This document shows, in pieces, positions 48,733 to 53,759 of a stretch of DNA of 64,000 bases. The notes under the pieces are model-generated. The model saw only the letters and a list, made by a program, of their open reading frames with translations, made no database searches and was not told the DNA's origin. Source of the DNA: Candidatus Binatia bacterium (GTDB lineage: Bacteria > Desulfobacterota > Binatia > HRBIN30); NCBI GenBank assembly GCA_026415395.1, contig JAOAHD010000007.1, forward strand, positions 779,304 through 843,303, read 5' to 3'. How positions within the stretch are numbered: the stretch's first letter is position 1; each line of letters begins with the position of its first letter. A program made the translations under genes and the position numbers.

Positions 48733-48781
48733 CCGCTGCAAGGGCGACTGCGAGAAGCGGGGCATCCTGTGCGGTTTGCGG

Positions 48782-48811
48782 TTGACAAGGCGGGCCCGTT
48801 GCAAGCATGTT
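48782..48811 (+). promoter_or_regulatory. Candidate promoter before the carboxypeptidase gene
   Basis: TTGACA (48782-48787) and CATGTT (48806-48811) are 18 bases apart, and the gene starts at 48854. The -35 box is perfect, the -10 box poor. Confidence 0.3.
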
Positions 48812-48853
48812 GTGCTTGGGAGTGGATGGCGGAAATTCGTCGGAGGTGTGGCG

Positions 48854-50002
48854 ATGAGGAAGAAGAAAAGCATCATCGTGCTGACCTTGGCTGCAGGGTG
48901 CATGGTCCTTCCGCTCTTGGCTCAAGCGGCGCCGGTAGCTCGGGTCACTTCTCTCACAGCACGTTCCGCTATTGTGATGGACGCAGAGAGCGGAGCCGTA
49001 TTGTGGAGCCACAATCCCGATGAACCTTTGCCTCCAGCGAGTACGACGAAAGTGGTCACCGCCTTGTTGGCGTTGCAAAGTGGACGATTGACCGAGCCGT
49101 TTGTGGTGTCAAACACCGCAGCCCAGGCACCACCGTCGAAAATCGGGCTGAGACCTGGCATGACCCTGCGCCTGCGGGATCTCGTCTACGCCGTGATGTT
49201 GAACTCCGCGAACGATGCCAGCATTGTGATTGCGGAGGGCTTAGCTGGATCGGTTCCGGCTTTTGCGCGGCAAATGAACGCGCTCGCCCGCCGGTTAGGG
49301 GCGGAACGAACGAACTTCGTCAACCCCAACGGATTGCCTGCCGACGATCACTACTCTACCGCACGCGACCTCGCCACGATCTTTCGTTACGCAATTCGGC
49401 ACCCGGTGTTTATGGAGGTTGTCTCGACCCGTTCAGGCCAAATTCGCCCGGAAAGTGGCGGCACACGCCCGATTGCTCTGCGCAATCATAACCGGTTGCT
49501 CGGGGAATATCCGATCGAGGTGGTAGGCAAAACCGGCTACACACGCGCGGCCAAGCGCTGTTTTGTCGGAGCTGCGCAGTGGAACGGCCAACGAGTGACA
49601 TTTGCTGTGCTCGGTGCGACCGACCTTTGGGGCGACATTAAGAAGCTGTTGGCCGCTGTGTTCGAGCATGATCCATGGCCTCAGGTGCATCCTCGTGCCT
49701 TGCAGACGGCTCAAACTGGCGCAGAAGCGGTAGACGGAGGAGATGAGGCCGATCAACCTGGCGTTCGTGGCCGTTATGCGGTTCGTTTGGGCAGCTTCCG
49801 CAACTACGACGCGGCGCGCAAGGTGAGTGCTTCGCTCAAGCAACGGGGGTACTCCGTACGCTTGGAGCGGCGGCGGCGTAAGCGTGGCGCTTTGTACCAG
49901 GTAACTGTGGGTGGCTTTGCTGACCCGCGCGAAGCTCACAAGGTGGCTCAGGACTTACGTCGCAGCCACCATCGTGTGGGTGTTGCCGTCGTGCAGCGTT
50001 GA
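48854..50002 (+). CDS. D-alanyl-D-alanine carboxypeptidase with SPOR domain
   Basis: 382 residues from ATG 48854 (cggagg upstream). A signal peptide (KKKSIIVLTLAAGCMVLPLLAQA), then a penicillin-binding carboxypeptidase with SxxK in PPASTTKVV, SxN in NSANDAS and KTG in GKTGYT, and C-terminal SPOR (RYAVRLGSFRNYDAARKVSASLKQRGYSVRLE...VTVGGFADPREAHKVAQDL). It trims the last D-Ala from peptidoglycan in the periplasm. SPOR binds denuded glycan at the septum, so the enzyme is probably targeted to division sites. It converges on the REC-LpxC gene. Confidence 0.95.
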   Translation: MRKKKSIIVLTLAAGCMVLPLLAQAAPVARVTSLTARSAIVMDAESGAVLWSHNPDEPLPPASTTKVVTALLALQSGRLTEPFVVSNTAAQAPPSKIGLRPGMTLRLRDLVYAVMLNSANDASIVIAEGLAGSVPAFARQMNALARRLGAERTNFVNPNGLPADDHYSTARDLATIFRYAIRHPVFMEVVSTRSGQIRPESGGTRPIALRNHNRLLGEYPIEVVGKTGYTRAAKRCFVGAAQWNGQRVTFAVLGATDLWGDIKKLLAAVFEHDPWPQVHPRALQTAQTGAEAVDGGDEADQPGVRGRYAVRLGSFRNYDAARKVSASLKQRGYSVRLERRRRKRGALYQVTVGGFADPREAHKVAQDLRRSHHRVGVAVVQR

Positions 50003-50062: not shown

Positions 50063-51364
50063 CTATTGCGCCCCCGATGCCAAATAGCGCCGCTGGATCT
50101 CGCGGAGCAGCGCGATGTTCTCCGAATGACCCGTCCGCCGTGCCGTGATTTTGCCTCGCAGCGGTCGGCCTAGTAAATACATGTCGCCCATAATGTCGAG
50201 GATCTTGTGGCGGGCGAGCTCGTCTGGGAAGCGTAGAGTTGTGTTGACGACCTTCTCGTCGTCGATGAGAATGCAATTATCCAGGCGGCCACCCGACGCC
50301 AGCCCCATCGCCGCCATTTGGGCAAGGTCCCGCACGAAGCCGAAGGTGCGCGCCGGCGCAATTTCATCACGGAAGGATGCCGGCCCGTGGTATACGTAGT
50401 GGTACAGCTGCTGGCCCACTGGCGGCGGATACTCGAGCAAGTAACTGATCGCAAAGCCGTCGAAGGGTTCAATGCGTATCCACTCGTTGGCTTCGCGGCG
50501 CACTTCGATCGTGTCATCGATCACGATCTCCTCTGCGGGCTCGTCCTGCTCCAACGTCCCGGCGCTCTCCAGCAGGTGGCAAAAGCCAATGGCAGACCCA
50601 TCCAAGATCGGCACCTCCCCTTGGACCTTCACCAACAAATTGGTGACCCGATAAGCGTGGAGCGCGGCGAGGAGGTGCTCCACCGTGCGGATGGTGACGC
50701 CGTGGCGGTGTAGCGTGGTCGCGTAACCCGTGGAATCAACATAGTCCAAATGCGCGGGAACGGTCGCCTCGGCCGACAGGTTGGAAAACACAATTCCCGA
50801 TCCCGCTGGAAGAGGCTGTAAAATGAGGCCAGTTTTCGCACCGCTATGTAGCCCGGTTCCCGTGTGCACCACGCTGCGCGCTACGGTTCGCTGCGCGGTC
50901 TGTTGTCCCTGCCGCCATGCACGGTTCGCGGCAACCGCGTCTGGAATTTGCCCCGATCCAAGCGCGCGGGGGGAACCAGCATCTCTGTGCTCTCGTTGGT
51001 GCTGGAGGGCGCGCTCAATTGTCGAGAGGAACCCGTCGAGAGAAAACGGCTTTTCGACAAAGTCGACGGCTCCGAGTTTCGTTGCCTTGACGGCGGTTTC
51101 GATGTTCCCGTGTCCGGAAATCATGACGACAGCGGGGCGGTGGGGCACATCTGGCGCCGCATTCAAGGCGCGGAGGAATTCCAAGCCATCCATTTCCGGC
51201 ATCCAGACATCGACAATCACCAGGTCCGGCGCCGTCTTTCGAATGGCGGTGAGTGCGGATTTCCCGTCCTCGGCTTCGACGACGTTCAATCCCTCCTCGA
51301 CAAGGATGCCCCTCAACGTAGCCCGAATTTCAGGCTCGTCATCCACCACCAAAACCGTTGCCAT
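50063..51364 (-). CDS. lpxC: Response-regulator receiver fused to LpxC deacetylase
   Basis: 433 residues from ATG 51364 (ggagg upstream). Residues 1-120 are a full receiver: acidic pair Asp8/Asp9, phospho-acceptor Asp52 (VDVWMPEMDG), Ser83 in MISGHGNIETAV and Lys105 in FVEKPF; MISGHGNIETAVKA..GAVDFVEKPF is NtrX-like. After a 38-residue linker, residues 158-430 are a complete UDP-3-O-acyl-GlcNAc deacetylase, with Glu229 and His230 (TVEHLLAAL), the VPILDGSA loop, ARTFGF, His386, Lys387, Asp390 (HKILD) and His413 (TGHSEN): the zinc ligands and catalytic residues. It makes the first committed step of lipid A. The upstream gene is an NtrY-like kinase. No AAA+ or Fis domain exists. The frame is continuous. 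Confidence 0.94.
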   Translation of the reverse strand: MATVLVVDDEPEIRATLRGILVEEGLNVVEAEDGKSALTAIRKTAPDLVIVDVWMPEMDGLEFLRALNAAPDVPHRPAVVMISGHGNIETAVKATKLGAVDFVEKPFSLDGFLSTIERALQHQREHRDAGSPRALGSGQIPDAVAANRAWRQGQQTAQRTVARSVVHTGTGLHSGAKTGLILQPLPAGSGIVFSNLSAEATVPAHLDYVDSTGYATTLHRHGVTIRTVEHLLAALHAYRVTNLLVKVQGEVPILDGSAIGFCHLLESAGTLEQDEPAEEIVIDDTIEVRREANEWIRIEPFDGFAISYLLEYPPPVGQQLYHYVYHGPASFRDEIAPARTFGFVRDLAQMAAMGLASGGRLDNCILIDDEKVVNTTLRFPDELARHKILDIMGDMYLLGRPLRGKITARRTGHSENIALLREIQRRYLASGAQ

Positions 51365-51503
51365 CGATAGACAACCTCCTCCCGAACTTCTCACACGCCC
51401 TAGAACGGACGGCCACACACCGCGATAGCATGGTTGCTCATAGCCTTGCTACCTCCCAGCACCGCTTGTGCAGAGACGCAGCCTGCAGTCCAATGCTGCA
51501 CGG

Positions 51504-53759
51504 TCAGCTCTGGGCGAGCCGAACGCGTACCGCCTGCGCCCGATCCGAGGCCCGTACCGGAAAGTCGATCACGAATCGCGTTCCGCGGGGAACATTGTCA
51601 AAGACGCGGATATACGCCTGGTGCTCGGAAAGAATCGAGGAAACGATCGCTAGGCCCAATCCCGTCCCATCCTTTTTGGTCGAGAAATATGGCTCGAATA
51701 GCCGCGCTTTGACCTCCGCGCTCATTCCGCAGCCCGTATCGGCAACTTCAAGGCGCACTGTCTGCAACTCCCCGAGCCACAAGGTGCTCACGGTAACCTT
51801 GGCCTCGCCATCTACCGCCTGGCATGCGGCCACGGCGTTATCCAAGAGATTCACGAGTGCGCGCTTCAGCGTTTCGCGGTCGAGATCGAGCGGAGGCAAG
51901 AGAGGATCCGCGACGAGCACAAATTCGAGGTCCGGATGTGCTTGCCGAAACAGAGCAACGGCTTCTTCCACGAGCTTGTTCAAGTCGCTGGCCTCCAGGC
52001 GAATTGCGGGCAGCCGAGCGAAGCGCGAAAACTCGTCGACGAGTTTCTTGACCTCCTCCACCTGTGTCACGATCACCCGCACGCACTCGTCTAAAATGGC
52101 ACGACCCTCGGCATCGAGCGCCACGGCGAGGCGCTTCTGCAATCGTTGGGCCGATAATTGAATCGGCGTAAGTGGATTCTTGATCTCATGAGCGAGGCGC
52201 CGGGCAACTTCACGCCAGGCCTCCATGCGCTGCACGCGCAAGAGATGGGTGACATCCTCGAAGAACAGGATCACGCCGTTCGGGCGCCCTTGCGCGTCGC
52301 CCAACGAACGAGCAGTGACGAGGGCGGCCAAAGGAGATTCCCCGCTTGCGAGCCGGAGTTGCTGTTGGACGTCACGCTGCGGGTATGCGGACACCTCTTG
52401 CACCATCTCCAGAAGCGGCGTCCATTGCTCTCCAACGAATACTTCTTCGCTGCGAGCTCCGGCAACTTGGGCGAGCCGAATCCCTAGCATCCGCTCCGCG
52501 GCAGGATTCACCGACGAAATGCGGCCCTCGCGATCGAGGGAAACCACACCCGCGGCAATATTTGCGAGCAGGCTTTCCACGTAGTTTCTGCGTTCAACCA
52601 GCTCCAAGTTGGTGCGCTCTAGCTGGTTGGTCATCTGGTTGAACGAGTCCACCAACACCGCAATCTCTTCGTCCGTGGCTGGCTCGATGCGGTAACTCCA
52701 ATTGCCGCGCGCAATTTCACGTGTTCCCTCCGCGAGTTGTAACAGCGGGCGGGTGATATTTCGTGCTTGGCGAATGCCGAACCAGGTGGCAGAGAAGATG
52801 AGCACCAGGGTGAGCAAAGCGAGGGTCAGGATGTAACTATTCTTGACCGGCTGGCGCATGATATTGAGCTGCCGGTATTCCTCGAACGACCGTGCAATCG
52901 TTCGTACCGTTTCCGCCACGCTGCGAGGGACAACGTAAGCGACCCAGACCGAGCCGATGACCTGACCGCCGTCGCCGTGGATCGGTACCCCTACCCGCAC
53001 CACGTCGGCCTTTCCCCAGCGGTGGGTCTCGGCAAAGTCATTGCCCCGCGCAACCCTCCGTGCGGCCTCGGTGGGTACCTCCGGTAAACGCGGTGCATCG
53101 CCCTCGCTCGCTTGCGCGAGAAGGCGCTGGTCGCTGCCGCGCAGCTCTATGTGCGCTAGTCCATATTCCGCGCGCTTTGCCTCGACCCATTGTTGCAAGG
53201 CTGCTGTCGGATCCGTCGCCAAGAGCCCGGCAGCTTGGCTTTGCCGACCCAACTCCCGCGCAAAGCGGAACGCCTGGTTTGCAGCAAACTGATAGTAGCT
53301 TTGCGCAATACTGACCGAGCCCTGTAACGCTGCCTCCACGCGACTGTTGAACCACGTTTGGAAGGCGAGTTGGAGGAAACCTTGCGCCACCCAAAACAGC
53401 AGGATACTGGGAGCCAGGGTCAAGGCCACAAAGGCTAAGACCAGGCGCGTGCGCAGGCGTGAGCCGAAGATCCCTCGCCGTCGCTCCCAAACGAGTTTTG
53501 CAACATTTCGTGTAACGAGGAAGACGAGAAGAATGAGCAGCAAGAGGTTGACGTTGATGAGCAAGAACGAGACTACGTTGTTGCTCATCGGGCCTGCATT
53601 CCTCGCCGGATCGTGGGACACCTCCCACCAAGCCAGGCCCACGAACAAGCAGCCGGCGACGATGAGCAGCCATGTCTCCCGGCGACGCCGTCGGCGCTCG
53701 TCTTCGGGTGGTTGCGAGTTGACTACCGTACCACCGCCCGTCGCGAATGGGGCACTCAC
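51504..53759 (-). CDS. NtrY-like sensor histidine kinase
   Basis: 751 residues from GTG 53759. Three N-terminal spans (about 30-48, 62-84, 105-130), an extracytoplasmic region to about 305, a fourth span (310-328), HAMP, a PAS domain (about 395-505), then HisKA with His524 in HEIKNPLTPIQLSAQRL and HATPase with the N-box NLLDNA (Asn641), DTGCGM and GTGLGLA. The layout and sequence are NtrY-like. NtrY usually pairs with NtrX; here the next gene on the strand, 139 bases on, is the receiver-LpxC fusion, so that is the likely partner. It is divergent from caiB. Confidence 0.95.
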   Translation of the reverse strand: MSAPFATGGGTVVNSQPPEDERRRRRRETWLLIVAGCLFVGLAWWEVSHDPARNAGPMSNNVVSFLLINVNLLLLILLVFLVTRNVAKLVWERRRGIFGSRLRTRLVLAFVALTLAPSILLFWVAQGFLQLAFQTWFNSRVEAALQGSVSIAQSYYQFAANQAFRFARELGRQSQAAGLLATDPTAALQQWVEAKRAEYGLAHIELRGSDQRLLAQASEGDAPRLPEVPTEAARRVARGNDFAETHRWGKADVVRVGVPIHGDGGQVIGSVWVAYVVPRSVAETVRTIARSFEEYRQLNIMRQPVKNSYILTLALLTLVLIFSATWFGIRQARNITRPLLQLAEGTREIARGNWSYRIEPATDEEIAVLVDSFNQMTNQLERTNLELVERRNYVESLLANIAAGVVSLDREGRISSVNPAAERMLGIRLAQVAGARSEEVFVGEQWTPLLEMVQEVSAYPQRDVQQQLRLASGESPLAALVTARSLGDAQGRPNGVILFFEDVTHLLRVQRMEAWREVARRLAHEIKNPLTPIQLSAQRLQKRLAVALDAEGRAILDECVRVIVTQVEEVKKLVDEFSRFARLPAIRLEASDLNKLVEEAVALFRQAHPDLEFVLVADPLLPPLDLDRETLKRALVNLLDNAVAACQAVDGEAKVTVSTLWLGELQTVRLEVADTGCGMSAEVKARLFEPYFSTKKDGTGLGLAIVSSILSEHQAYIRVFDNVPRGTRFVIDFPVRASDRAQAVRVRLAQS

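Follow-up and report, generated by a model that had tools for sequence, protein, structure and literature searches.

An NtrX-type receiver domain fused to LpxC in the Binatia suggests phosphorylation control of lipid A synthesis

In a genome of the Binatia, a receiver domain of NtrX type and LpxC are encoded as one protein, and we consider it probable, judging from sequence, that this protein is a response regulator derived from NtrX with LpxC as its output, and that phosphorylation by the kinase NtrY sets lipid A flux post-translationally. Lipid A is the lipid of the Gram-negative outer membrane, and LpxC catalyses the step that commits cells to making it. The fusion gene (50063..51364, minus strand; 433 aa) lies in the window, by which we mean the whole 64,000-nucleotide stretch of Candidatus Binatia bacterium contig JAOAHD010000007.1 that was analysed. 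Phosphorylation control had been proposed in an earlier note on this DNA; what would argue for it most strongly are the three-domain intermediates, the unfused lpxC-ntrY-ntrX cluster and the missing NtrX described below.

Translation of 50063-51364 on the minus strand gives 433 codons and a stop, with an ATG start and no internal stop; by our own reading, a purine-rich, likely ribosome-binding site (51375..51382, minus) lies about 10 nt 5′ of the ATG. Residues 4-116 (51017..51355, minus) match the Pfam receiver family Response_reg (PF00072, 1.5e-30), with D52 as the phospho-acceptor. Residues 158-423 (50096..50893, minus) match LpxC (PF03331, 2.1e-86; 290.2 bits against a cut-off of 27), and the NCBIfam lpxC family TIGR00325 gives 258.8 bits against a curated cut-off of 187.25. 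The linker between them (residues 131-153; 50906..50974, minus) is predicted to be flexible (AlphaFold pLDDT < 50) in a model with an overall pLDDT of 86.4 and a pTM of 0.85. Thus the single 433-residue frame of receiver plus complete LpxC that the note had described stands, with D8, D9, D52, S83, K105, E229, H230, H386, D390 and H413 each where it had placed them. The receiver has the Asp pair, the phospho-acceptor Asp, the Ser/Thr and the Lys of two-component receivers, and the LpxC sequence has what we take to be the zinc ligands and catalytic residues of the enzyme.

The note had also called the receiver NtrX-like, and its best response-regulator family is indeed NtrX (NCBIfam NF051870, 119.7 bits), matched in the receiver part only and below the family cut-off of 600 bits over REC-AAA+-HTH. 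The protein appears to derive from NtrX but is not itself an NtrX. By sequence, the solved structures closest to the receiver are 4d6x and 5m7n, which we take to be NtrX of Brucella. The bifunctional LpxC-FabZ family (NF009667) is matched in the LpxC part only, at 211 bits against a cut-off of 465. A Foldseek search with the window protein returned LpxC structures, with many inhibitor structures, and none of its best 50 matches spans both the receiver and LpxC domains. The draft genome (3.69 Mb, 25 contigs) is 95.8% complete, and at that completeness a genome search for the stand-alone second lpxC that the note had suggested looking for found none, leaving the fusion as the sole LpxC match; the genome also encodes LpxB and LpxK. 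Convergent with the fusion gene is a D-alanyl-D-alanine carboxypeptidase with a C-terminal SPOR domain (48776-50002, plus strand).

An NtrY-like histidine kinase with NtrY_N, HAMP, PAS, HisKA and HATPase domains by Pfam (51504..53759, minus) is encoded 139 bp upstream of the fusion on the same strand, so that the fusion has the adjacent kinase expected of a response regulator. This kinase gives the genome's sole NtrY_N match (40.6 bits against a cut-off of 23.2, over profile positions 9-135 of 291), and we infer that it is the partner of the fusion. The note had asked whether such fusions always neighbour an NtrY-like kinase. Within the window's class they do, in that an NtrY match lies directly upstream in all 38 fetched loci with a kinship label (35 by rule; L114, L119 and L163 by eye). 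As a general rule the claim fails: outside the class NtrY is mostly distant from the fusion, and among the loci of the genome search it adjoins the fusion there only in L168, L170, L172, L177 and L184. By rule, NtrY is directly upstream in 49 of the 110 fused loci examined, a redundant set.

The fusion is widespread. A contig scan found it unbroken in 16 further loci at 42-76% identity, three of which extend to the contig end; these loci include Bacterium HR30, Candidatus Binatia/Binatota, ‘Deltaproteobacteria’, Syntrophobacterales, Syntrophorhabdales and one spirochaete. When about 12 first-look candidates per genome were scored, among the matches listed, near full-length REC-LpxC was present in 131 of the 145 genomes of the class, and contig ends cut the fusion in 7 more. 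In the remaining seven (G317, G320, G326, G353, G372, G381 and G401) this search, which used no LpxC model, gave no LpxC match and only matches at receiver level. One of the 131 genomes (G354) has an in-frame stop and a Cys at position 83, and another class genome (G410) carries an extra unfused LpxC besides the fusion. Could two genes simply have been joined in assembly? The window does come from a draft in 25 contigs, but a frame of this kind recurs unbroken in 16 other loci and in 131 of the 145 genomes of the class, which excludes chance or misassembly, and REC-LpxC also occurs on a 2.68 Mb spirochaete contig; we put the probability of a join at practically nil and reject it. Nor did the class genomes show a stop and start between the two domains, which the note had named as grounds for abandoning its reading.

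Across the phylum, at least 91 of 395 sampled genomes carry a fused LpxC (70 two-domain, 20 with a frame of 630-820 aa and one cut by a contig end), a lower bound because four first-look candidates were scored per genome, among the matches listed. Sixteen of the 70 belong to the class; also counted among the 70 are G438, which a contig end cuts, and G083, whose match begins at model position 43. In a tree of 65 LpxC domains, one branch with support of 100/100 split 39 fused (31 two-domain, 8 long) from 26 unfused domains; in a quick tree of 129 (79 fused, 50 unfused) the fused clade had support of 99. The unfused LpxCs in both trees come from the phylum, and within that sample the fused LpxCs form one clade. 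In a receiver-only tree, whose 119 columns are too few to show the fused receivers as a sister group of NtrX, no branch set fused receivers apart from unfused NtrX, nor from the six other receivers and seven regulators of the window genome that were included.

Several genomes depart from the common pattern. The spirochaete REC-LpxC (L016, AP019861.1) forms a long branch inside the fused clade, and our guess is that it was acquired by horizontal transfer. G208 and G252 (loci L175 and L174) have a divergent REC-LpxC plus a stand-alone ordinary lpxC, and G047, with 5% contamination, likewise has both kinds. In G522, which is 75% complete, there are two REC-LpxC genes (L261 and L262), and no NtrY was found.

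The 78 unique fused receivers all have D8, D9, D52, G84, H85, K105 and P106, with Ser at position 83 in 73 of them and Thr in 5; G354 stands outside this set, and L177, whose frame is broken ahead of its AAA+ part, was left out. E229, H230, H386, K387 and D390 are invariant in 79 of 79 fused LpxC domains, H413 is present in 78 (a contig end cuts the remaining one) and position 173 is His in 75. These counts come from fetched loci, mostly high-scoring matches, rather than from all fused genomes. The receiver's function in the fusion is a prediction, and one could regard the domain as an evolutionary remnant with no regulatory effect. We judge this very improbable, as all 78 receivers keep the phosphorylation site while the family's AAA+ domain decayed (see below), and as the class matches to fused-type LpxC that lack a receiver part, only G382, G426 and G337, are all cuts at a contig edge.

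The same invariance bears on a docking role, in which the receiver would mainly tether LpxC to membrane-bound NtrY, placing the enzyme or withholding its substrate, with phosphorylation only tuning release. A tether would suit the predicted-flexible linker (the gap between receiver and LpxC in two-domain fusions is 20-62 aa, median 29) and the retention of NtrY, of which 29 of 30 fused genomes have exactly one homologue at E 1e-40. Docking alone, however, has no obvious need for phosphorylation residues that never vary, and we regard it as unlikely.

Fused and unfused LpxCs also differ after the last catalytic His, where the median number of residues is 16 in 70 two-domain and 16.5 in 8 long fusions, and 43 in 50 unfused LpxCs of the phylum. 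Since their tails are short, most fused LpxCs are unlikely to carry a long tail degron of the E. coli kind. E. coli LpxC is degraded by FtsH via a C-terminal degron (part of the review PMC12444477), and phosphorylation could instead decide whether a protease takes up the fusion. We hold such control of turnover to be distinctly unlikely. The tails overlap, with 32-34 residues in 9 of 70 two-domain fusions and at most 24 in 10 of 50 unfused proteins; moreover, a short tail may have arisen once and been inherited, given that the fused proteins form one clade, and the difference is no statistical proof. In the part of PMC12444477 used here, FtsH control of LpxC is also said to be largely restricted to Enterobacteriaceae.

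The longer fusions bear on the origin we favour, from NtrX. Six long open reading frames scanned with Pfam contain a receiver, Sigma54_activat, AAA_lid and LpxC. In a seventh long form (L177, 2815-4983, minus) the AAA+ domain and LpxC share a frame and the receiver lies in another, reflecting either a read error or a real split, and two further long forms were recognised by homology. Nine of the 20 long-frame genomes were read directly, and the other 11 were assigned by frame length alone. In NCBIfam, L172 and L176 match NtrX best, with 304 and 345 bits along almost all of the profile, HTH included; two unfused NtrX of the phylum reach 498 and 487 bits, all four lying below the NF051870 cut-off of 600. 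We therefore read the long form as a whole NtrX joined to LpxC.

In these proteins the AAA+ domain seems no longer to work. Walker A is kept in 9 of 9 fused AAA+ domains; the sigma54-contacting GAFTGA loop, the Walker B Glu and the Arg-finger motif, as we take these motifs to be defined, are each found in 0 of 9. The 12 unfused NtrX of the phylum that were compared all retain the three, with one-letter GAFTGA variants in three proteins. As the AAA+ motifs are lost and the phosphorylation residues invariant, the transcription part appears to have decayed while the receiver stayed intact. Caulobacter NtrX also lacks GAFTGA (PMC10274813, in part), so the loss of this loop alone is possible in a working NtrX; that the Walker B Glu and the Arg finger are lost together is the stronger sign of decay. 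A single clade of two-domain forms is not rejected (p 0.185), and thus the AAA+ domain may have been lost once or several times.

We also compared 21 unfused lpxC loci, chosen for diversity. NtrY lies just downstream of lpxC in 16 and is absent from the locus in 5, and NtrX is beside the cluster in 12 (on the same strand in 11). A frequent order is lpxC-DUF4390-ntrY-ntrX; L238 and L239 have lpxC-DUF4390-ntrY-kdtA, to which L240 adds lpxK. Because unfused relatives often keep lpxC, ntrY and ntrX together, the link between lpxC and NtrYX is wider than the fusion, and we take it to be older. Judging from the cluster, LpxC may have been a target of NtrYX for a long time.

DUF4390, a protein of unknown function, is encoded between lpxC and ntrY in L240 (6622-7356, minus), L233, L235, L238, L239, L244, L245 and L253; among 20 distant NtrY loci from fused genomes, 8 have it upstream of NtrY. 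One search found it in 5 of 20 genomes, and it was not found in the window genome or in 8 other class genomes checked. It is a candidate partner of NtrY. In L253 (G134), an ordinary lpxC with ntrY-ntrX downstream is directly preceded by genes for a stand-alone 117-aa receiver and a hybrid kinase, an arrangement that appears to be a second, separate link between a receiver and lpxC.

A profile of unfused NtrX gave an NtrX-level match (≥ 678 bits) in 1 of 35 fused genomes, G285; of two genomes with both kinds of LpxC, G208 has such a match and G252 has none. The remaining listed matches in these genomes score at most 554 bits, the level of paralogues. Twelve unfused genomes score 742-792 bits with this profile and only set its scale, giving no independent frequency, since NtrX next to lpxC was the reason for choosing them and the profile was built from 11 of them. 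The fair contrast is with the unfused-lpxC genomes, at least 13 of 21 of which have NtrX (12 beside lpxC; G208 elsewhere). All seven REC+AAA+ regulators found in the window genome were scanned, and NtrX is the best family of none. NtrX adjoins NtrY in 1 of 20 distant NtrY loci (again G285), some with flanks of only 0.6-2 kb. From the profile search and the regulator scans, NtrX is missing from nearly all tested fused genomes.

The simplest account is probably that the fusion stands in NtrX's place as the partner of NtrY. If so, then phosphorylation of D52 would act on LpxC itself, and a membrane sensor may control lipid A synthesis directly, as LpxC carries the NtrX-derived receiver. We picture an ancestral NtrX (REC-AAA+-Fis-type HTH), partner of the membrane kinase NtrY, that would have been joined to LpxC; its AAA+ domain would then have lost the ATPase and sigma54 parts and been deleted in most lineages, leaving REC-LpxC. 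NtrY would most likely sense a cell-envelope cue and phosphorylate D52, and the receiver would alter LpxC output, in activity first and in stability second, so that lipid A flux is set after translation. We infer the order of these events, NtrY as phospho-donor, the cue and the control of LpxC. Taken as a whole, the path from NtrX beside lpxC, through an NtrX-LpxC with a dead AAA+ domain, to REC-LpxC, with classwide lipid A synthesis under a direct phosphorelay that has no transcription step, is one we lean towards; a transcription factor would have turned, its intermediates still living, into the regulatory domain of an enzyme that its pathway once controlled. Counting against the explanation of the fusion as an NtrX-derived response regulator are the distance of NtrY from most fusions outside the class, the receiver-only tree, G285, with both NtrX and the fusion, G208, G252 and G047, with both kinds of LpxC, G522, with two fusions and no NtrY found, and the copy in G354, with its in-frame stop and Cys at position 83.

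Published work on NtrYX and lpxC, cited here for parts of each paper, points the same way independently. In Rhodobacter sphaeroides, loss of ntrYX gives 8.8-fold more lpxC mRNA and more LPS, and no NtrX site was found upstream of lpxC (PMC7240162). A 2025 review describes NtrYX as inhibiting lpxC transcription in R. sphaeroides and C. crescentus, within large regulons (PMC12444477), and lpxC is the single target of the Desulfovibrio vulgaris response regulator DVU2934 (PMC3333781). Because NtrYX lowers lpxC transcription in these two alphaproteobacteria, we would guess, and hold weakly, that phosphorylation lowers LpxC output.

How does the fusion compare with known systems? Response regulators with enzymatic output are known, such as CheB and PleD. 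Like them, the fusion joins a receiver to an enzyme, and in CheB and PleD phosphorylation switches the output; theirs, however, is a signalling enzyme, whereas here it is the committed enzyme of a biosynthetic pathway. The fusion shares with LpxC-FabZ the joining of LpxC to another domain, but LpxC-FabZ consists of two lipid enzymes and carries no receiver. It has the complete deacetylase domain of LpxC (PF03331 / TIGR00325), with zinc and catalytic residues, and differs from ordinary LpxC in its N-terminal receiver, linker and short C-terminal tail. It resembles the NtrY/NtrX system in its NtrX-type receiver and the NtrY-type kinase next door, but it has no AAA+ or DNA-binding domain, the enzyme itself being the output. 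NtrYX, for its part, affects lpxC transcripts and LPS in the sections of the published work used here (PMC7240162, PMC12444477). The described modes of LpxC control are FtsH/LapB/YejM, MurA binding, Lon or transcription (PMC12444477, in part), and the words ‘receiver’ and ‘fused’ are absent from the main text of two reviews of LpxC control (PMC12444477, PMC13333357). Our search of the open-access literature, with subscription papers mostly outside its scope and database annotation possibly existing, found no report of a receiver-LpxC protein or of NtrX-LpxC intermediates. Enzyme output of response regulators is thus known, and LpxC as that output, together with the NtrX-LpxC intermediates, is what we did not find reported.

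Control of LpxC outside E. coli is still emerging, according to part of the 2025 review (PMC12444477), and an LpxC controlled by phosphorylation, if true, would be a new answer to how it is achieved. The NtrX-LpxC intermediates, if they are what they seem, would document, as few cases do, how a DNA-binding regulator was absorbed into an enzyme. Throughout the class, lipid A synthesis would then be governed by a sensor directly rather than via gene expression.
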